From Sandaracinus amylolyticus (GTDB taxonomy: Bacteria > Myxococcota_A > Polyangia > Polyangiales > Sandaracinaceae), in NCBI RefSeq assembly GCF_021631985.1, contig NZ_CP070225.1, positions 3,410,001 to 3,474,000 of the forward strand: a DNA stretch of 64,000 bases, read 5' to 3'. Under the pieces are notes generated by a model. The model was given only the letters and a program-made list of their open reading frames with translations, had not been told where the DNA came from and did no database searches. The translations under genes and the position numbers were made by a program. The stretch's first letter is position 1. Every line of letters starts with the position of its first letter. Shown here piece by piece: positions 9,887-19,600 of this stretch.

Positions 9887-9977
9887 ACGAGAGGCGACGG
9901 AAGCGGGTGACGCCCTCGAGCCGCATGGCTCGGGGGCGTCCGCGCTTGGAGCCCAGCTCGGACCGCGGCGAGCAACG

Positions 9978-10169
9978 CCCAAACCGATCCGAGGCCAGCT
10001 CCCGCTGCCTTCCGCGCCACCGAAACCGACTGGAGGCCAGCTCCAGCTGCCTTCCGCGCCACCGAAACCGACTGGAGGCCAGCTCCAGCTGCCCTCCGCG
10101 CCACCGAGACCGACTGGAGGCCAGCTCCAGCTGCCCTCCGCGCCACCGAAACCGACTGGAGGCCAGCTC
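9978..10169. repeat. 42-bp tandem repeat array A (about 4.6 copies)
   Basis: Four 42-bp units (9978-10019, 10020-10061, 10062-10103, 10104-10145) and a partial fifth. The first copy is the most diverged and copies 2-4 are nearly identical. Each has the core CCGAAACCGACTGGAGGCC followed by AGCTCCAGCTGCC. Because 42 is divisible by three the array stays open in several frames, but it lies between convergent genes and no gene is supported. Confidence 0.9.
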
Positions 10170-10204
10170 GAGCCGGGTCTTCGGCGGTTCGAAACCGCCG
10201 CGGG

Positions 10205-10345
10205 GGCAGCTCCAGCCGGGTCTCGGACGGTTTCAGTGGTCCGACGGGCAGCTCCAGCCGGGTCTCGGACGGTTTCAGTGGTCCGACGGGCAGCTCCAGC
10301 CGGGTCTCGGACGGTTTCAGTGGTCCGACGGGCAGCTCCAGCCGG
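10205..10345. repeat. 42-bp tandem repeat array B (about 3.4 copies), partly inverted relative to array A
   Basis: Three nearly perfect 42-bp units (10205-10246, 10247-10288, 10289-10330) plus the first 15 bp of a fourth. The unit contains GGCAGCTCCAGCCGGGTCTC and GGACGGTTTCAGTGGTCCG. Its reverse complement aligns with the array-A unit at 28 of 42 positions, sharing the ACNGAAACCG and AGCTGCC cores, so A and B could pair into a long imperfect hairpin. It ends about 30 bp before the stop of the convergent DUF4340 gene. Confidence 0.9.
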
Positions 10346-10377
10346 CTCCGCGCCCCGGAGACGCGCCTGGAGCACGG

Positions 10378-12600
10378 TCAGGGCTGGTAGTCGACGAACG
10401 CGCGCGCGACCGGCGCACCGAGACGGAAGCCGATCGCGAGATCGCTCCGTCGCGCGTGGTACCAGCCATCCGCGCCCGCAGCGCCCGGGGCGCCGACACG
10501 CAGCTCGTACTGCTCCGGCGTGCCGGTGCGGCGATGGATCTCGAGCACCAGCGTCGGGCTCGCCATCCCGTCCGCCGGCGCGGGCTCGCCGTAGCGCGTC
10601 GTGCCCACCGCCCGCATCGACGCGAGGCGATCGAAGATGAGCGTGGTGCGCGCCTCGTCCGCAGGGCCCTGCCCTGCGGTCCATCCGTCGCCCTCGCGGC
10701 GCAGCTCCACGCGCTCACCGCCTCGGACCAGCACGAGCGACTCGAGCTCCGAGGTCTCGACCGCGAGCAGATCGCGGCTCGCGAGCGGGCCCTCGAGATC
10801 CGCGATCAGATCGCTGGCGACGACGAACACCGCGGGGTCCTCGCCGAGCTGGGCGAACGCGCCGCCCTCGGTCGCCGCGCCGATGCGCAGCACGAAGACG
10901 CGCGGCGGCGTCTCCTCTTCGTCCTCGTGCTCGCCGTGATCGTGGTCGTGCTCTTCTGCGGCGTCGTCCTCGTCGGGCAGCGGGCCCTCGAACGTCGCCG
11001 TGACCACGAAGCGCGGGCGCTCGAGGCCGTGCTCGGCGCTCGCGCGATCGGCGACGAAGCGCACCGCCGTCAGCGACGCGACCGCGCGCACCACGTCGCG
11101 CGTCACGACTCCGTCGGCCGCGACCTCGACCGGCGTGGTCACGCGCCACTCGGTGCCGCGCTTCTGCACGCGCTCTTCGACGCCCCCGCGCAGCACGACG
11201 ACGTCCTGCGCGTTCGTCTCGACGTCGCGCACGAGACGGCGATCGCGGAACCGGATCGCAGGCGCCGTGAGGAGCTCCGCCGCAACGAGCGGGAAGCGCG
11301 CGATCTGCGGATCGTCACCTCGGCGGACCCACACTCCGTCGGCGTCGGTCGCGCCCAGCGCGACGCGCTCGCTGCGCTCCTGATCGCTGCGATGCAGCGT
11401 GATCGTCGCGCGCGGCGTCGCGAGCCCGCGGGCCCGCAGTGCCTCGTCGGTCGCGGGCTCGTACGCGAGCGCTTCCTGCGCGCGCATCTGGTTGGTCCAG
11501 TCGGCGATCGCGTCGTCGTCGGCGGCGCGCTCGTCCTCGCCCTGGACGATCTGCCAGCCCATGTCCTCGCGGCGAAGCTGATAGCCGTCGAGCTCGGCGC
11601 GCTCCATCTCGTCATCGCGCATCGCGACGAGGCGGCTCTCGCGCAGACGATCGACGCCGAGATCGAGCGTCGAGATCGACTCCGCGGTGACGCACACGAT
11701 CGGGCCTTCGTCGCCGACCATCGCGACGACCTCGGCCTCGCGGCCCGGGCATGCACCACCGATGCGCAGGCGCAGCGGCGTACGATTCGCCTCGTTCTCC
11801 GCACGATCGCGGCGCACCACGAGCTCGCGCGAGGGCTGCGCGAGATCGGCCTCGTCGAGGAAGCGCGTCGCGCGCACCTCGCGCAGCATCGAGAAGATCT
11901 CCTCGAGCGACGACGTGCGCGCGAGCGCCTCGTAGGGCTCGCGCAGCATCCACCCGCCCTCGGTGCGCTCCACGCGCGCGCGCTCCTGCTGCGTGCTGAG
12001 CTCGACCGCGCTCACGTCCGCGCTGCGCAGCGAGTCGAAGAGCTCCTTGCGGCGGAAGTGCGCGACGTCGTGCTGCAGCGCCTCGACGAAGTCCTGACCG
12101 ACGACGAACGCCTCGTCGGGTCGATCCGACACGCCGACGTACACGCCCTCGCCGCGCGGATCTTCACCGCCGAGCGCGACCGTCACGTCCTCCCCCGCGA
12201 CGGTGAAGCGCACGGTCGCGCGCGGCTCCGCGAGCCCGAAGCGCGTGCGATCCTCGTCGGTGATCCCGCGAAGGGAGCGACGCGCCTCGAGCCACTCGAG
12301 CGACGAGAGCAGCTGGTCGACCGCGTCCTGATCGGCGTCGCTGTCGATCGGCGCGGTGAGCTTCCAGTGCCCGAGCTCGAACTCGTCGAGGTCCTCCTCG
12401 CGATCGCGATGCAGCACGATGCGCGTCTCGCCGCTCACCAGCTCCACGTCGCTCACGCGCGGCCGCACGAAGCGTTGCAGCACGCGCCCGCGCCGCGCCT
12501 CGAGCTCGCCGGTCGAGAGCATCCCGCTCTCGAAGATCCCGATGAAGAGCGCCATCGCGAGCGCGATGACGCCCAGCACGATCGTGGTTCGCTTGGACAT
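10378..12600 (-). CDS. DUF4340-domain membrane-anchored protein of a Gld-like ABC system
   Basis: A 740-residue protein. An N-terminal membrane anchor (TTIVLGVIALAMALFIGIFE) is followed by repeated DUF4340-type segments. These alternate beta strands of the form VSDVELVSGETRIVLHRDR with phrases such as WKLTAPIDSDADQDAVDQLL and TRFGLAEPRATVRFTVAG. About three such units can be discerned along the chain, with an acidic His/Glu-rich insert (EEHDHDHGEHEDEEE) about two thirds along. It is the last gene of a four-gene minus-strand operon after a GldG-like protein, a GldF-like permease and a GldA-like ATPase. DUF4340 proteins commonly accompany these transporters. The role is probably as an extracytoplasmic partner; the transported substrate is unknown. 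Confidence 0.85.
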   Translation of the reverse strand: MSKRTTIVLGVIALAMALFIGIFESGMLSTGELEARRGRVLQRFVRPRVSDVELVSGETRIVLHRDREEDLDEFELGHWKLTAPIDSDADQDAVDQLLSSLEWLEARRSLRGITDEDRTRFGLAEPRATVRFTVAGEDVTVALGGEDPRGEGVYVGVSDRPDEAFVVGQDFVEALQHDVAHFRRKELFDSLRSADVSAVELSTQQERARVERTEGGWMLREPYEALARTSSLEEIFSMLREVRATRFLDEADLAQPSRELVVRRDRAENEANRTPLRLRIGGACPGREAEVVAMVGDEGPIVCVTAESISTLDLGVDRLRESRLVAMRDDEMERAELDGYQLRREDMGWQIVQGEDERAADDDAIADWTNQMRAQEALAYEPATDEALRARGLATPRATITLHRSDQERSERVALGATDADGVWVRRGDDPQIARFPLVAAELLTAPAIRFRDRRLVRDVETNAQDVVVLRGGVEERVQKRGTEWRVTTPVEVAADGVVTRDVVRAVASLTAVRFVADRASAEHGLERPRFVVTATFEGPLPDEDDAAEEHDHDHGEHEDEEETPPRVFVLRIGAATEGGAFAQLGEDPAVFVVASDLIADLEGPLASRDLLAVETSELESLVLVRGGERVELRREGDGWTAGQGPADEARTTLIFDRLASMRAVGTTRYGEPAPADGMASPTLVLEIHRRTGTPEQYELRVGAPGAAGADGWYHARRSDLAIGFRLGAPVARAFVDYQP

Positions 12601-12609
12601 CGTTCGCTC

Positions 12610-14199
12610 TCAGGAACGCCGGTTCCACCACACGGCGAAGCCGAGGAAGAAGATCGCCGCGGGCAGCAGCACGACCACGCGGAAGCCGAGCCCGTCGACG
12701 TCCTCCTGGGTCATCCGCACGGGGCGCGCCTCGACGCTGCGCCCCGGCAGCTCGATCAGCGCCTCGCGCTCGGTGAGCCAGCCGACGATCGCGCTCGCGA
12801 GCTCGTAGTTCATGACCTCTTGGAGCCCGAGGTACTGCGAGTCGAGGAAGTCGGCGTCCCCCACGACCACGACGCGCCCGCCCTCGCGCTCTTCTGCCGC
12901 GTCCTCGGTCTCGCCCTCGGGCGCCTCGCCGAGACGCTCGACGCGCGTCGCGACCGCGATCGACACCGGGCCCGCGAGATCCGCGTCGTCGCGCGAGGGC
13001 TCGCCGCGCTGGATCATCTGCGCGAGCTCGGTCTCCGCGAACGACGATTCGCTCGTCGAGAGCAGCGTCGTCGCGCGATCGGGATCGACGGGACGCACCG
13101 AGCGCGCGATCTGGAAGAGCACACCCGCCGGCGGATCGCGGAACGGGCGGGTGATCGGATGATCGCCCCAGCTCGCCACGAGGTACGGCCCGATCGGCGA
13201 CGTCGCGCTCTGCGGCAGGAAGCGCGGATCGAGCTCGAGCACGAGCGATCGGTCGATGCGGATCCCGAAGTCTCGCAGCACCTCCTCGAGGCCCGTCGCG
13301 GTGATCTGCTCGTCGCGCAGCTCGGGATCGGCCGCGACGAAGAGGTTGCCTCCGCCCTGCACGTAGCTGCGGAGCAGCTCGGCCTCCGCGCTGGAGAACG
13401 CGGTGGTCGGACCGACGACGAAGACCGCGTCGCAGTCCTCGGGCACGCGCTCTGCGCCGCGCGTCTCGAACGTCTGGATGTCGAGGTTGTCGCGGCGCAT
13501 CTGGTCCTGCAGCGCGCCGAGATCGCGCTCCGCGCCGCGGCCGAGCGTCCACTCGCCGTGGCCCTGCGTGATGCAGACCTTCGTCGGGCGCCCTGCCGTG
13601 ACCTCGAGCAGACCGCCGGTCAGCGCCTGCTCGGAGCGCACGTCGACGCGCGCCTGGCCCTGCTCCATCGCGTCGAGGTCGACGCTCACGAGATCGTCGC
13701 GCCCGATCTTCCACTGGCGCTCGCCGCTCTCGAGCACGACCGCGACGTCGCTGCCCAACGTGCCGCCGCCGAGATCGACCTGTCCGAGCCGCAGCCGCTC
13801 CGCGAGCACGCGATACTCGCCGGGCTCGCGATCGGGATCGACGAAGTGCAGCGTGATGCGCTGCGACTCGGCGCGATAGCGCTGCAGCAGCTCGCGCAGA
13901 TCCTGGTAGTTCGGCTCCGCCGACGAGAGCACGAGCCACGCGTCGACGTCGTGATCGAGCTCGTGCAGCACGGCGCGCGTGCGATCCGAGAGCGTGAACA
14001 CGCCCTCGCTCGTCCAGTCCCACCGCTGGTAGTGGCGGAAGGACAGGTAGTTGCCCATCAGCACGATCGCGAAGACGAGCAGCGAGGCGACGACGACGTT
14101 GGTGCGTCCCTCGAAGCGTCGCTTCGACGCGACATCGTCGCGCGCGGTCTTCTCCGCGGTCTCCTTGGGCTCGGGCGTGCGCGTCTTGTCGGAAGTCAT
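12610..14199 (-). CDS. GldG-like ABC transporter auxiliary membrane protein
   Basis: A 529-residue protein. ATG 14199 overlaps the permease stop codon (ATGA, 14196-14199). An N-terminal cytoplasmic tail of about 33 residues precedes one membrane helix (VVVASLLVFAIVLMGNYLSF). A large extracytoplasmic part follows, starting RHYQRWDWTSEGVFTLSDRT, the hallmark opening of GldG/ABC-type uncharacterised transport proteins. An IFT52-like domain includes VFVVGPTTAFSSAEAELLRSY and GGGNLFVAADPEL. A C-terminal helix (VVVLLPAAIFFLGFAVWW) ends in NRRS. In Bacteroidetes GldF/GldG/GldA support gliding; homologues elsewhere have no firmly known substrate. Sits between the permease and the DUF4340 gene. Confidence 0.88.
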   Translation of the reverse strand: MTSDKTRTPEPKETAEKTARDDVASKRRFEGRTNVVVASLLVFAIVLMGNYLSFRHYQRWDWTSEGVFTLSDRTRAVLHELDHDVDAWLVLSSAEPNYQDLRELLQRYRAESQRITLHFVDPDREPGEYRVLAERLRLGQVDLGGGTLGSDVAVVLESGERQWKIGRDDLVSVDLDAMEQGQARVDVRSEQALTGGLLEVTAGRPTKVCITQGHGEWTLGRGAERDLGALQDQMRRDNLDIQTFETRGAERVPEDCDAVFVVGPTTAFSSAEAELLRSYVQGGGNLFVAADPELRDEQITATGLEEVLRDFGIRIDRSLVLELDPRFLPQSATSPIGPYLVASWGDHPITRPFRDPPAGVLFQIARSVRPVDPDRATTLLSTSESSFAETELAQMIQRGEPSRDDADLAGPVSIAVATRVERLGEAPEGETEDAAEEREGGRVVVVGDADFLDSQYLGLQEVMNYELASAIVGWLTEREALIELPGRSVEARPVRMTQEDVDGLGFRVVVLLPAAIFFLGFAVWWNRRS

Positions 14200-14951
14200 C
14201 CTTCGTACCTCCGCGCCTCGAGCACGCGCACCGCGACGAAGAGCGCGAGCGCGGTGATCGACAGATCCCAGACGAGATAGCGGGTGTCGACGACGCCGGT
14301 CGCGTAGGTGCTCAAGTGGCCCCACACGCTGACGTACTCGAAGATCTCGCGCGCTCCGTCGTCGGGGAAGACGAACTGGCCGAGGCCGATCATGAAGTGG
14401 CCCGCGACCGCGAGGAACGTGAGCATCGCGGCGACGATCTGGTTGCGCGCGATCGCGCTCATCAGGACGCCGAGCGCCATCCACGAGAGGCCGAGCGTGA
14501 AGAGCCCGAAGTAGGTCGCGCCGAGCGCACCGAGATCGACGTCACCGAAGCGGCTCGTGAGCCATCCGTACATGAGCGTCGGCACGAAGAGCGCGCACCA
14601 GAACGTCATCGCGGCGAGGAACTTCCCGAGCACGATCGCGATCTCCGAGACCGGCGCGGTGAGCAGCGGCTCGATCGTGCCGGTGCGGCTCTCCTCGGCG
14701 ATGAGGCGCATCGTCAGCAGCGGCACGATGACGAGCACGCAGAGATAGAAGAGCGTGGTGCCACCGAAGAACTGCGCGAGCGGGCTCTCGCTGGTCGCGC
14801 CCGCGGTGAAGGGCTGCGACGCGGCGAACGCTGCGAGCAGATAGAACTGGAAGCCCATCAGCACCGCCCACGCGGTCAGCACCACGTAGGCGAGCGGCGA
14901 GACGAAGAACGAGACGATCTCGCGCTTCGCGATCGTCCACATCGCCCTCAC
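14196..14951 (-). CDS. ABC-2 type permease, GldF-like
   Basis: A 251-residue integral membrane protein with about six helices. GTG 14951 overlaps the ATPase stop (GTGA, 14948-14951); an internal ATG at 14942 is the alternative start. The N-terminus MWTIAKREIVSFFVSPLAYVV and the segment RLIAEESRTGTIEPLLTAPV are characteristic of ABC-2 permeases of the GldF/NosY type. Together with the ATPase it would form the core transporter, with the GldG-like and DUF4340 proteins as extracytoplasmic partners. Translationally coupled on both sides. Confidence 0.9.
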   Translation of the reverse strand: MRAMWTIAKREIVSFFVSPLAYVVLTAWAVLMGFQFYLLAAFAASQPFTAGATSESPLAQFFGGTTLFYLCVLVIVPLLTMRLIAEESRTGTIEPLLTAPVSEIAIVLGKFLAAMTFWCALFVPTLMYGWLTSRFGDVDLGALGATYFGLFTLGLSWMALGVLMSAIARNQIVAAMLTFLAVAGHFMIGLGQFVFPDDGAREIFEYVSVWGHLSTYATGVVDTRYLVWDLSITALALFVAVRVLEARRYEG

Positions 14952-15940
14952 GACGCCGCCTCCTGCTCTTCGGGCTTCTCTGTGCTCGTGCCCGGCTCCA
15001 CCGCTTCCTCGGTCGTCAGTCGCCCGAACACTTCTTCGAGCGAGCCCACCGTCTCCGGTCGCAGCTCGCGCAGCACGAGGCCCGCCTTCGCGACCGCCGC
15101 GAACACGCGCTCCGCGCCCTCACCGAGCTCGTCGACCGCGACGCGCGCCCGCACTCGACCGTCGCCGAGCGTCTCGACGCCCTCGATCGCCCGCACGCCC
15201 TCGACGCCCTCGAGCGCCGTGCGGAATCCGTCGCCCGTCGCGCGCGCCTCGATCACCAGCACGTTCCCGCCGGCGATCGCCTGGCGCAGCTGATCGGGAG
15301 CGCCCTCGCGCACCACGCGGCCGCGATGGATGATCACCACGCGATCACACGTCGCCTCGACCTCGGGCAGGATGTGCGTCGAGACGAGCACCGTCTTCTT
15401 GCCCGCGAGCCCGCGCACCAGATCGCGCACCTGCCGGATCTGGTTGGGATCGAGGCCCGCCGTCGGCTCGTCGAGCACCAGGATCGGCGGGTCCGCCACC
15501 AGCGCGTCCGCGAGGCCCACGCGCTGCCGCGTGCCCTTGCTGAGCTGCCCGATGATGCGGTCGCCCGCTTCCTTCACGCTCGCCTGATCGAGCGAGATCT
15601 CGACGCGCTCCTTGATGGCGCGCGCCGCCACGCCCTTGAGCTCGGCGCGGTACCGGAGGTACTCGCGCACCCGCATCTCCGGGTAGATCGGGCACGCCTC
15701 GGGCATGTAGCCGATGCGCTTCTTCGCCTCGATCGGCTTCGCGAGCGCATCGATGCCGTCGATGCGGATCGCCCCGCCGCTCGGGGCGAGGAAGCCGGTC
15801 AGCATGCGCAGCGTGGTGCTCTTGCCCGCGCCGTTGGGGCCGAGGAATCCGACGATCTCGCCCTTCTCGACGCGGAAGGAGACGTCCTGCACCGCGGTGC
15901 GCGGTCCGTATCGCTTCGTGAGGTGCTCGACCTCGATCAC
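14948..15940 (-). CDS. ABC transporter ATP-binding protein, GldA-like
   Basis: A 330-residue ATPase. Walker A GPNGAGKST, signature LSKGTRQRVGLADAL, Walker B ILVLDEPT and the H-loop STHILPE are all present, so it should be catalytically competent. The C-terminal extension of about 100 residues is common in ABC-2 ATPases. GTG 15940 is chosen because GAGAGG lies at SD distance (four nt before) and the family sequence MIEVEHLTKRYG begins there. The frame is open further upstream without homologous sequence. It is the first gene of the four-gene transporter operon. Confidence 0.93.
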   Translation of the reverse strand: MIEVEHLTKRYGPRTAVQDVSFRVEKGEIVGFLGPNGAGKSTTLRMLTGFLAPSGGAIRIDGIDALAKPIEAKKRIGYMPEACPIYPEMRVREYLRYRAELKGVAARAIKERVEISLDQASVKEAGDRIIGQLSKGTRQRVGLADALVADPPILVLDEPTAGLDPNQIRQVRDLVRGLAGKKTVLVSTHILPEVEATCDRVVIIHRGRVVREGAPDQLRQAIAGGNVLVIEARATGDGFRTALEGVEGVRAIEGVETLGDGRVRARVAVDELGEGAERVFAAVAKAGLVLRELRPETVGSLEEVFGRLTTEEAVEPGTSTEKPEEQEAAS

Positions 15941-16227
15941 GGTGCCTCTCGGGTTCGCAGGGATCGGACCTGCTCGCAGCGAGCGAGCGGTGTTGTGCGG
16001 CGACCCCGTACAACGCGCGCGCGGAGCAAGCAAGGGCGAGGCGCTGCCGTTTTCTGGACCGGCGATGCGCGACGACGCGAGGCTGGCGCTCGCATGTCGA
16101 TCGTCGCAGCTGCGATCCTGGTGATGCTCCTCGGGCAGGACCTGCTCGCGTGGGCGAACCGACGACGCTGATCGCCTGAATGAGGCGAGATGGCGCCGCA
16201 ACGGTGGGACGAACCCGCCGCGGTGCC

Positions 16228-17022
16228 ATGCTATCGTCGCTTCACGCGTCTCCGATCGACGCCCTTCCCCTCCCGGTCGCGGACACCCGCGACGCGAACG
16301 GTGCCGTCGCTCCCGCGAAGGTGCCGAAGCAGGCAGCACCAGGAATGGATCCGGAACGCGCGCTGATCGAGCGAGCGCAGGCGGGAGACGCGGCGGCCTT
16401 CCGCGAGATCTTCCGCAACCACCGCAGCGACGTGTCGCGCGTGGTGTTCCGCATGATCGGACCGGGCCCGGAGATCGAGGACGTGGTGCAGGAGGTCTTC
16501 CTGCACGTGTACCGATCGCTGCGCTCGTTCCGCGGCGAGTCGCGGTTCTCGACGTGGCTCTACCGGCTCGCGGTGAACGTCTCGCGCATGCACCTGCGCA
16601 AGGGTCGCTCGAGGCCGCGCTTCACCGACGTCGAGGTTCCGGAGGGACCCGCGGACGGCGCGCCGCACGAGACGCCGGACGTGATCGTCGAGCGCCAGGA
16701 GCGTGTGCGAACGCTCTATCGCCTGCTCGATCAGCTGAGCGACAAGAAGCGCGAAGTGCTGGTGATGCACGACTTCGACGGAGTGCCCGCGAAGGAGATC
16801 GCGGAGATCGTCGGAGTCCCCGTGCTCACCGTGCGCACTCGGCTCTTCTACGCGCGCAAGGAGCTCTACGCCGCGATGACGGCGGAGCCGAGCCTCGCGC
16901 AGGTGATGGAGGTCCTCGTCGCACAGCTACCGGGCAAGCCGCGCTCGAAAGCCGACGACGGGCTCCGCGGTCCGCCCGAGGCGATGGCCGAGGACGAGAG
17001 CAGCCGGGAGAGCCGACCGTGA
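16228..17022 (+). CDS. ECF-type RNA polymerase sigma factor (RpoE-like)
   Basis: A sigma factor with region 2 (AAFREIFRNHRSDVSRVVFRM, EIEDVVQEVFLHVYRSL, FSTWLYRLAVNVSRM) and region 4 (QLSDKKREVLVMHDFDGVPA, EIAEIVGVPVLTVRTRLFYA). The start is uncertain: ATG 16228 gives 264 residues with a poorly conserved N-terminus, while ATG 16345 starts next to the conserved DPERALIERAQAG. A TATCGT box at 16232-16237, if it is the promoter, would favour the downstream start. The 3' end overlaps the next gene (GTGA), which encodes a zinc-finger anti-sigma protein, so this is almost certainly a sigma/anti-sigma pair. The roughly 290 bp before it (15941-16227) hold only a doubtful 25-codon ORF at 16094-16171. 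Confidence 0.85.
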   Translation: MLSSLHASPIDALPLPVADTRDANGAVAPAKVPKQAAPGMDPERALIERAQAGDAAAFREIFRNHRSDVSRVVFRMIGPGPEIEDVVQEVFLHVYRSLRSFRGESRFSTWLYRLAVNVSRMHLRKGRSRPRFTDVEVPEGPADGAPHETPDVIVERQERVRTLYRLLDQLSDKKREVLVMHDFDGVPAKEIAEIVGVPVLTVRTRLFYARKELYAAMTAEPSLAQVMEVLVAQLPGKPRSKADDGLRGPPEAMAEDESSRESRP

Positions 17023-18512
17023 CGGGCGAGAGGGAGCACTCGCCGAAGATCGGGGCGCTGCTCGCGCTGCAGGAGCGACGTCTCTCGGCCGCGGGGCGCG
17101 CGCGCATCGAGCGGCACCTCGCGGGCTGCGACGTGTGCCGTCAGGCGCTCGCAGCGATGGCGCTCTACGACCGCATCGCCGACGAGGCGCGCGACGAGGC
17201 GCCGCCCGAGCTCGACTGGTCGCGGATGGAGCTCGCGCTCGAGCGCGAGGCGAAGAAGGTCGCGGAGACGCTGCGCGCGAAGAAGCGCGACCAGGCGACG
17301 AAATCGCGCCGGCCCTGGATCTCGTTGGGTGTCGCGGCGCTCGCGGCAGCGGGTGTGCTCGCGTACGTCGCGACGCGGCCCGCGCCCCAGATCGCGCGGC
17401 CGACGCCGCCGCCCGCGCCGGTGATCGAAGCGCCCGCGCCGGAGCCCGAGCCGCCCGAGGTGGTCGCCGAGGCCGCGCCGCTCGCGGCGACCGTCACGCT
17501 GGTCGCGGGGCGCGGGGCGCAGGTGATCGCGCCCGATGGAACGGCGCGCGCGGCAGCGGTGGACGACCTGCTCGCCGACGCGACGACGCTGCGCACCGAC
17601 GACGCGAGCGAGGTCCACGTGCGGCTCGCCGAGGACACCGGCGTGATCGCGTACCCCGCGAGCGAAGCGCTGCTCACGAAGCTGCGCGAGCGCGACGTCG
17701 AGATCGATCTGCGCGCGGGCACGCTCGCGGCATCGACCGGCGGGCCGCTCTTCCAGGGCGAGTCGCGCTTCGTGGTGATCGCGTCGGAGCATCGCTTCGC
17801 GCTGCGCGTGACGCGCGCCGAGGTCGTGCTCGACGAGGGCGGTGTGGTGCGGCTCGCGGTCGCCGAGGGCGAGGTCGAGGTGCAGCGCCCCGACGGGCGC
17901 GTCGAGATCGTGCGCGCGCCCGCGCGCTGGAGCAGCGCCGAGGCGGGCGAGGTGCCCCGCGTGCGCGAGCCGCATGGCATCGCCGACGCGGACGCGGGCA
18001 CCGGCGTGCTGCGCGTGCGGCACCCCGGGCTCGTGCGCTGGCAGATCGGCGACGTGGAGGCCGAGGGCGCGGGTGAGCTCGCGATGCGCGTGCGCCCCGG
18101 CGAGCTGAACATCGGCGGCTTCGATCAGACCGGGCGCGCGTTCCGCACCGTGATCGTCGTCGGCGAGGACGGCGTCGCGCTCGATGCGGCGGATCTGCAG
18201 CCGCAGGCGCCGCGGGTGCGCGAGGGCACGCTGCCCGAGGCGGACATCCGCGAGGTCGTGCAGGGCGGCCTGCCGCGGCTGCGCCAGTGCTACGAGCTCG
18301 GGATGCGCGAGCGGCCGGACCTCGAAGGACGGCTGACGGTGCGCATCACGGTGGGCCTCGACGGCTCGGTGTCGCGCGCCGAGGTGGTCGGCGGGGACGT
18401 GCCCGAGGGCCTCCAGCAGTGCGTGCGGAACTACGCGGAACGATGGACGTTCCCGCCGCCGTCGGGCGGGTTCGTGCGCTTCGACGTGCCGCTCGCGTTC
18501 GGCGGGCGGTGA
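17019..18512 (+). CDS. Membrane anti-sigma factor fused to FecR-like and AgmX/TonB-like C-terminal domains
   Basis: A 497-residue protein, GTG 17019 overlapping the sigma factor stop. Residues about 1-50 hold a ZAS-type zinc finger (H-x3-C-x2-C in RHLAGCDVCRQAL), the usual sigma-binding module. A membrane helix follows near residues 105-125 (PWISLGVAALAAAGVLAYVA), then a Pro-rich periplasmic spacer. A FecR-like beta domain comes next (LLADATTLRTDDASEVHVRL, FVVIASEHRFALRVTRAEVV). The C-terminus is an AgmX/PglI-type domain (IREVVQGGLPRLRQCYELGM, LTVRITVGLDGSVSRAEVVG, NYAERWTFPP). This domain is related to TonB C-termini and in myxobacteria occurs on gliding and envelope proteins. The fusion could let envelope events control the sigma factor. 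Confidence 0.85.
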   Translation: MTGEREHSPKIGALLALQERRLSAAGRARIERHLAGCDVCRQALAAMALYDRIADEARDEAPPELDWSRMELALEREAKKVAETLRAKKRDQATKSRRPWISLGVAALAAAGVLAYVATRPAPQIARPTPPPAPVIEAPAPEPEPPEVVAEAAPLAATVTLVAGRGAQVIAPDGTARAAAVDDLLADATTLRTDDASEVHVRLAEDTGVIAYPASEALLTKLRERDVEIDLRAGTLAASTGGPLFQGESRFVVIASEHRFALRVTRAEVVLDEGGVVRLAVAEGEVEVQRPDGRVEIVRAPARWSSAEAGEVPRVREPHGIADADAGTGVLRVRHPGLVRWQIGDVEAEGAGELAMRVRPGELNIGGFDQTGRAFRTVIVVGEDGVALDAADLQPQAPRVREGTLPEADIREVVQGGLPRLRQCYELGMRERPDLEGRLTVRITVGLDGSVSRAEVVGGDVPEGLQQCVRNYAERWTFPPPSGGFVRFDVPLAFGGR

Positions 18513-18565: not shown

Positions 18566-19600
18566 ATGTTGGGTCGAGGACTGCCGATCATCGGGCGCGT
18601 TCTGCTCTGCGCGAGCGCTCTCGCGGGGGGCGCGATGCTCGCGCACTTCACACGTCCCGTCGCGCAGTCGGCGGCGCACGCGATGGTCCGCGAGGACGTC
18701 GCCCCACCCGCGCCGGTCGACGAGCCGATCGACGTCGCGGAGATCGCGCCCGAGCCCGACGACGAGCTCGTCGAGCCGCTCGACGGGATGGGCGCGGATC
18801 TCCGCGAGGGCATGGTGATCACCGGCGGGACCCCGCATCGGCTGATCCTCTTCACGTTCGACGACGGGCCCGACCATCGCTACACGCCGGGGCTGCTCGA
18901 CACGCTCGACGCGCTCGGGATCCGCGCGGTGTTCTTCCTGACCGCGCGGCGCTTCGAGGGCACCACGCCGCGCGAGCGCCTCCTCGCCGACATCGCGCGC
19001 GACATCGTCGCGCGCGGGCACATCGTGGGCAGTCACACGATGGATCACGTGCAGCTCCCGCTGCTCTCGCACGAAGATCTCGTGGAGCAGGTCCTCGGCA
19101 CCGAGCGCGTGTTCGAGAACGTGCTCGGCGCGCGACCGTGGCTGATCCGTCCGCCCGGTGGATCGCGCTCGCCGCGCATCGACGCGTGGCTCGCGGAGCG
19201 CGGCTACACCCAGGTGCTGTGGAACGTCGGCACCGGTGACTTCCAGGTGCGCTCCAGCGACGACGTGCTCCGCACCTTCACGCGCGTGCTCGAGCGCCGC
19301 GAGCGCGAGAACGGCGAGCGCGGCGGGATCGTGCTGCTCCACGACATCCACGAGTGGAGCGTCGAGGCGCTGCCGCGCATCGTGCACGAGCTCGAGCACC
19401 GCAACTGCGCGCTGCTCGAGGCGGGCGAGGAGCTCTACGACGTGGTCGACGATCCGCGCCCGTTCTTCACGATGCGCGGCGAGGCGAACGCATCCGAGGA
19501 AGCCCCGCCCGCGATGCCCGAGCCTGCCTGGCTCGAGGCGCGACAGGCGCGGCTGCGCGAGGCCGCCGAGGCCCGCTGCGCGCGTCTCGCGATGCGCTGA
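18566..19600 (+). CDS. Polysaccharide deacetylase (NodB homology domain)
   Basis: A 344-residue exported or membrane-anchored enzyme of carbohydrate esterase family 4. An N-terminal hydrophobic helix (LPIIGRVLLCASALAGGAML) precedes an acidic Pro-rich linker. The NodB motifs are in order: TFDDGPD (catalytic and metal Asp), SHTMDH (H-x3-H metal ligands), RPPGGSR, and LLHDIHEW (catalytic His). Likely substrates are N-acetylated polymers such as peptidoglycan or exopolysaccharide. A C-terminal tail of about 90 residues rich in Glu/Ala/Arg follows the domain. It sits alone downstream of the sigma/anti-sigma pair, 53 bp after its end, and could share its regulation, though it has its own -10-like box. 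Confidence 0.92.
   Translation: MLGRGLPIIGRVLLCASALAGGAMLAHFTRPVAQSAAHAMVREDVAPPAPVDEPIDVAEIAPEPDDELVEPLDGMGADLREGMVITGGTPHRLILFTFDDGPDHRYTPGLLDTLDALGIRAVFFLTARRFEGTTPRERLLADIARDIVARGHIVGSHTMDHVQLPLLSHEDLVEQVLGTERVFENVLGARPWLIRPPGGSRSPRIDAWLAERGYTQVLWNVGTGDFQVRSSDDVLRTFTRVLERRERENGERGGIVLLHDIHEWSVEALPRIVHELEHRNCALLEAGEELYDVVDDPRPFFTMRGEANASEEAPPAMPEPAWLEARQARLREAAEARCARLAMR

Follow-up and report, generated by a model that had tools for sequence, protein, structure and literature searches.

Most of what is known about FecR-type signalling comes from iron uptake, with a separate receptor carrying the signal. The regulators FecR, PupR and FoxR combine an ECF sigma partner with a cytoplasmic anti-sigma domain, one membrane helix and the FecR/CJM fold, according to the accessible parts of PMC7186176 and PMC11637429. 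The periplasmic part of PupR consists of a FecR-type subdomain followed by an STN domain (PMC7186176, accessible parts). FoxR cleaves itself between a Gly and a Thr ahead of signal recognition, and in the known systems the genes that the sigma factor activates include the one for its outer-membrane partner (PMC11637429, accessible parts). In VreA/VreR/VreI (PUMA3) of Pseudomonas aeruginosa, also a cell-surface-signalling system, a TolA/TonB-like C-terminal domain is joined to the signalling domain of a separate protein, VreA (PMC2729926, accessible parts). GltG (PglI) and GltJ (AgmX) of the Myxococcus gliding machine carry the NF033768 domain behind a membrane helix; they are parts of a motor-driven machine and are not described as transcription regulators in the accessible text of PMC3169522 and PMC5349195.

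A comparison with the locus at 16228-18512 of the window (the whole 64,000-nucleotide stretch of DNA analysed here) shows that it shares the ECF partner, the cytoplasmic anti-sigma domain, the single helix and the FecR/CJM fold with FecR, PupR and FoxR. In contrast to these three, as far as the accessible text of their sources goes, the window protein has a TonB-like C-terminal domain and an extra beta-sandwich instead of STN, an anti-sigma domain of the zinc type and a predicted exopolysaccharide (EPS) regulon. The C-terminal domain recalls those of VreA, GltG and GltJ, but it sits on the anti-sigma factor and not on a separate protein as in VreA. Judging from sequence, we propose with a probability of about 0.65 that the two genes form an autoregulated ECF sigma/anti-sigma switch that would turn on EPS export. 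If this is true, FecR-type signalling would extend to cell-coat control through a TonB-tipped form conserved in myxobacteria. The features are as follows.

16177..16203, plus strand: promoter-like motif TGAATG-N14-CGCAACG (contains TGAAY-N16-GCAAC), at equal spacing upstream of relatives' sigma genes
16229..16238, plus strand: DNA element TGCTATCGTC (TGNTANNNT), conserved in relatives' sigma loci
16345..17022, plus strand: ECF sigma factor, favoured but not proven start ATG 16345 (MDPERALIERAQ, 225 aa)
17019..18512, plus strand: membrane anti-sigma factor, 497 aa, from profiles, predicted fold and pairing with the sigma gene
17040..17198, plus strand: anti-sigma domain with H33-x3-C37-x2-C40, zf-HC2 below cut-off, ligands in 23/25
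17319..17375, plus strand: single transmembrane helix, residues 101-119, the strongest hydrophobic segment by hydropathy
17376..17486, plus strand: Pro-rich linker by composition, 13 Pro in 37 residues
17487..17936, plus strand: FecR/CJM-type periplasmic domain, PupR Z 12.7, Pfam FecR below cut-off
17991..18206, plus strand: transthyretin/Ig-like beta-sandwich domain, from its own structure model
18228..18500, plus strand: AgmX/PglI (TonB/TolA-like) C-terminal domain with C424 and C468, from NF033768, fold and cysteines

Two genes thus make up 16228-18512, the ECF sigma gene followed by the anti-sigma gene. The sigma gene lies on the plus strand, ends at 17022 and has possible starts at 16345 or 16228; the GTG start of the anti-sigma gene (17019-18512, plus strand) overlaps its TGA stop. 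The sigma domains are found with Pfam scores of 62.1 bits (Sigma70_r2) and 53.9 bits (Sigma70_r4_2). The in-frame start at 16228, used in the initial annotation, was not taken as certain and ATG 16345 was preferred, since the conserved 'MLSS' at 16228 follows the DNA element. An ATG-Asp start stands at the matching distance in 14 of 34 sigma loci, and TGNTANNNT lies downstream of the promoter-like motif in 18/30 loci, one of the 30 (L084) being unreadable. The element TGCTATCGTC at 16229..16238 is perhaps a second, housekeeping-type extended -10, a role suggested by its conservation.

The initial annotation had placed a zinc-finger anti-sigma domain, one helix, a FecR-like and an AgmX/PglI domain in one sigma-coupled protein. 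The computed architecture and the pairing bear this out: the sigma gene is directly upstream of the anti-sigma gene in all 25 unbroken loci of the order. Profile support is uneven. On the window protein the C-terminal domain is clearly recognised by NF033768 (AgmX/PglI C-terminal domain; 65.9 bits against a curated cut-off of 40), whereas zf-HC2 (20.6 bits) and FecR (19.8 bits) stay below their Pfam cut-offs of 22.2 and 24. Both assignments find support in relatives and in the fold. In an alignment of seven proteins, the window's included (A3), FecR is matched in 6/7 (best 1e-11) and zf-HC2 in 4/7 (best 6.8e-16). In the predicted structure (mean pLDDT 79.6, from an alignment of 7 sequences), residues 186-319 match the FecR-type subdomain of PupR with Z 12.7 over 128 aligned residues and an rmsd of 2.9. 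His33, Cys37 and Cys40 are each kept in 23/25 aligned proteins (the window's own included), with the exact H-x3-C-x2-C spacing in 21/25. The N-terminal anti-sigma domain is apparently doubled in tandem in L100:6627-8438 and L104:6729-8738, also in L082 and L086; the zinc ligands are lost in L104.

Val264-Thr265 of the window protein stands at the probable equivalent of the FoxR cleavage site, where 18/25 aligned proteins have Gly-Thr and 4/25 have no Thr or Ser; self-cleavage is therefore not constant in this anti-sigma family. The beta-sandwich at about residues 325-396, which together with the promoter-like motif (16177-16203) goes beyond the initial annotation, has a pLDDT of 81.9 in a separate model. 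Its best structure matches (Z 8.1 and 7.9) gave only a common fold, and no ligand is inferred from them. The domain assignment leaves no stretch of the window anti-sigma factor for a C-terminal STN domain, because the C-terminus is assigned to NF033768/TonB_C and the preceding piece is nearly all beta.

The Pfam TonB_C model also matches the window protein (25.8 bits, cut-off 24.6). Within A3, NF033768 is found in 7/7 but TonB_C in only 2/7 (E<=0.01). In the predicted structure, residues 404-497 resemble the C-terminal domains of TonB proteins (Z up to 8.1), although by the search tool's own warning a Z near 8 alone can reflect a common arrangement; a PDB sequence search with the domain gave weak TonB matches (best E 0.063). 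By fold, the TonB-like module is on the regulator itself, as the initial annotation had it, in the C-terminal place where PupR has STN in the accessible parts of PMC7186176 and PMC11637429. Cys424 and Cys468 are kept in 25/25 aligned proteins, and the predicted periplasmic part contains no other cysteine.

The domain-order survey proposed in the initial annotation found the protein, full or nearly full-length by the seven-row alignment, in 26/183 genomes of the order and in 10/10 of the family. G027 and G227 are counted among the 26 as two pieces each; G027, the 26th genome beside the 25 unbroken loci, is split over two contigs, with the sigma gene and the N-terminus on the other contig. Across the class, 39/289 genomes match at E<=1e-30, of which 14 lie outside the order and 8 of these cover nearly the whole length; a draw of 377 genomes from the phylum gave 17 matches, all within the class. 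The surveys scored 4-18 candidates per genome (all where there were fewer), so absences are soft; the pairing counts refer to matches within the order. A sigma-alignment scan of named genomes turned up six loci in myxobacterial assemblies (L099-L104) that show the full architecture; they add names and not cases, since their sequences are apparently identical to those of six among the 26. Ten further, more divergent sigma-linked loci, among them L112 of Polyangium sp. 6x1, have a FecR match in 10/10 and a C-terminal region with conserved Cys. NF033768 matches none of these ten proteins at E<=0.01, so their C-terminal likeness rests on alignment. The zinc motif is absent in 6/10 (L106, L109-L113). 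The C-terminal domain, FecR regulators and EPS clusters are each already known. The initial annotation had allowed that the architecture might be already characterised; in the accessible text of the open-licence literature, neither an anti-sigma factor ending in this domain nor the regulon of this sigma factor was found described.

The TonB-like domain could be a passive structural or dimerisation module, with sensing and release through the FecR domain alone. It is common in the window's own genome (36 NF033768 matches at E<=0.001, 18 above cut-off) and stands there on unrelated proteins, one of them a protein kinase (L016:1462-3186, minus strand, Pkinase 130.3 bits), and is therefore a general module in this genome. 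Moreover, L117-L119 of uncultured Myxococcales MAGs, linked to a more distant sigma factor (34-35% identity), have the FecR region and a Pro-rich tail, and no TonB-like domain was matched in them. On the other hand, the domain with both cysteines is present in 25/25 aligned proteins, and those divergent loci that lack the zinc motif (L106, L109-L113) still have the C-terminal region with its conserved Cys, although NF033768 does not match it there. We regard a passive role as rather doubtful. Elsewhere in the same genome (G000:C1:2723648-2725632, L018:1-1746), another sigma-like gene is overlapped by the gene behind it, whose product has one helix and the AgmX/PglI C-terminal domain. This protein has no Pfam match, lies ~22 kb before the EPS genes and is a putative further anti-sigma factor with a TonB-like tip.

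The motif at 16177..16203 is predicted from sequence to be an ECF-type -35/-10 and would make the operon autoregulated. Of 34 regions upstream of sigma genes, 21 have the N16 spacing, against 0-2 for each of 13 other spacings, and 30 have a looser form; on the reverse strand of these 34 regions TGAAY-N16-GCAAC was not found. L090 is absent from these counts, having been missed by the search expression for sigma starts. The strict form TGAAYG-N14-SGCAACG has 37 sites in 12 genomes, and six other spacings together give 98, or about 16 each; for this reason the idea that all strict sites form a regulon was rejected. Nine of the 37 are sigma operons and seven precede genes of one family, whose products are small, secreted and helical and have conserved cysteines; among these seven, five were first found by listing genes after strict sites. 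A profile of four helical proteins (A5) then found the copy in the window's own genome and one in G334. The family occurs in 163/183 genomes of the order. In the window's own 10.96-Mb genome only two strict sites are found, one at the sigma operon and one 167 nt before the helical-protein match; this number does not exceed what other spacings yield there, with 10 sites for six of them. A one-mismatch search of this genome returned 115 sites, and 24 with the pattern reversed, and was discarded for its noise.

Outside the helical genes, a lipobox- or signal-like start follows within <=260 nt in 11/21 strict and 5/20 control sites (p=0.11), and within <=14 nt in 6/21 and 0/20 (p=0.02); the 20 control sites were hand-picked from the 98, and the search expression took two helical proteins for lipoproteins and overlooked L220. 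In L213, L219, L222, L224, L230 and L234, lipoprotein- or signal-bearing genes begin 7-10 nt past the strict motif, like leaderless transcripts. Genes of this kind after strict sites are possible further regulon members, for which the counts are suggestive only.

The presence of the motif before the helical gene was compared with the presence of the sigma factor. Of the 20 genomes examined that have the sigma factor, 19 carry the motif there, compared with 0/7 without the sigma factor (G235, G080, G231, G233, G218, G182, G211) and 0/2 with a divergent one (G051, G247); the exception is G236, which has the pair and no motif before the helical gene. With only barrel-adjacent copies considered, the figures are 17/17, 0/5 and 0/2. 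Among genomes not found through the motif, 12/13 with the sigma factor and 0/7 without it have the motif (Fisher p=1e-4, a type of value that overstates independence because the genomes are related). Sigma presence was taken from the anti-sigma survey and paired loci; in 16 genomes it was scored with the sigma alignment, and the cut between with and without (>=238 bits versus <=122) was set after the scores were seen. G200 was moved to the genomes with the sigma factor after its sigma gene was found near a contig end; the counts before were 18/19 versus 1/10. The set without is small because the loci covered only the best A5 matches.

The motif was looked for in 34 helical loci. Pair-bearing genomes outside the count are G027, G168 and G234 (weak helical matches without a locus), G204, G229 and G335 (no match at 1e-8) and G227, whose locus L297 has no upstream DNA; L274 (G335, E 0.0059) was left out. 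Four helical paralogues without the motif (L279-L282) were also kept out of the 34. The N16 motif occurs in 23/24 helical regions with zero at other spacings; since most of these regions had been picked because they contain the motif, the zeros are a test of spacing and the 23/24 is not.

The spacing of TGAAY-N16-GCAAC is ECF-like. Another sigma factor or regulator common to both operons could nevertheless read it, the pair then controlling something else: the assignment rests on conservation only, and the genomes hold several other ECF-like matches. Yet the motif lies upstream of the sigma gene itself, its presence tracks this sigma factor across genomes in the computed comparison above, and the ECF-like spacing also argues against such a reader, which we consider unlikely.

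The assignment of the motif to this sigma factor would give it a predicted target. In the window's own genome the helical gene is followed by genes for a barrel-like protein, an OPX protein (Poly_export, SLBB), Wzy, a Wzc-type kinase, an amidotransferase, glycosyltransferases, a Glycos_transf_4 protein and a Wzx-type flippase. The scores are 75.2 bits for Poly_export (cut-off 28), 47.1 for Wzy_C, 126.9 for Glycos_transf_4 and 47.3 for Polysacc_synt, and the cluster is an EPS pathway. The barrel of an OPX/barrel EPS cluster is 18-stranded; the one here is predicted only, with a weak BBP2_2 match of 21.5 bits below the cut-off of 23.7. The barrel gene is beside the helical gene in 25/34 loci, several others being cut by contig ends. 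In G149, G337 and G336 a strict site precedes a second helical copy with no barrel nearby, and the barrel-adjacent copy also has the motif, in its looser form in G149 and G337. An OPX protein and a barrel-like protein are likewise found in the composite EpsX/EpsY EPS translocon (PMC9601211, accessible parts). Neither ECF control nor a secreted helical protein ahead of the barrel is described there, and the OPX protein of the window's genome scores 91.2 bits with the EpsY model, under its cut-off of 320.

Based on these features, a course of events for the proposed EPS switch can be suggested. The anti-sigma factor would hold the sigma factor at the inner membrane by its cytoplasmic zinc-type domain, as its family suggests. 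Its predicted periplasmic part would present the FecR fold, the beta-sandwich and the TonB/TolA-like tip, which takes the place of the STN of PupR. Most likely this tip is a sensor for a partner in the envelope, which may belong to the export machine; by analogy with the known systems, and as a tentative guess, the candidates are the barrel, OPX or helical protein. Loss or change of the tip contact would release the sigma factor, by proteolysis as in FecR/FoxR or by conformational change. The freed sigma factor would read TGAAY-N16-GCAAC upstream of its own operon and also upstream of the genes for the helical protein, the predicted outer-membrane barrel, OPX, Wzy, Wzc, glycosyltransferases and Wzx, which we infer to form one transcript. 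The named promoter, the target cluster and a short deletion make direct testing possible.

Two other modes of sensing are much less probable. Cys424 and Cys468 could form a redox-sensitive disulfide by which the protein senses envelope thiol stress, since the pair is invariant and no further Cys occurs in the periplasmic part as predicted. But among the matches listed in this genome many other C-termini with the domain carry Cys, which fits a structural disulfide, and we regard redox sensing as very unlikely. TonB needs a histidine in its membrane helix for motor coupling. In the window protein no histidine is found in helix 101-119 (His occurs only at 7, 33, 200, 258, 319 and 335). The initial annotation had suggested force or contact across the periplasm, and of the two we keep contact as possible: a TonB/TolA-like transducer whose tip is pulled by an ExbBD/TolQR-type motor to release the sigma factor is hardly to be expected, in spite of the TonB-fold tip and of GltG and GltJ, whose machine with the same domain has a TolQR-related motor (PMC5349195, accessible parts), given the helix without His, the linker of ~37 residues behind it, the general occurrence of the module and a scan of six neighbouring proteins in which no motor gene was found.

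The same six proteins include no TonB-dependent receptor. A divergent ABC transporter with an ABC_transp_aux protein (12610-15937, minus strand) and a polysaccharide deacetylase downstream (18566-19600, plus strand) are often kept beside the sigma/anti-sigma pair. Among the 26 loci L069-L094 with flanks of ~1.5 kb, the divergent ABC-transporter ATPase is present in 20 and the downstream deacetylase in 17, one of them on the other strand. Also in the window, the translation of a mechanical ORF at 9907-14280 (plus strand) shows repeated blocks of the SDGQLQPGLGRFQW and LEASSSCPPRHRNR types in its N-terminal part, a sign of tandem repeats in the DNA.
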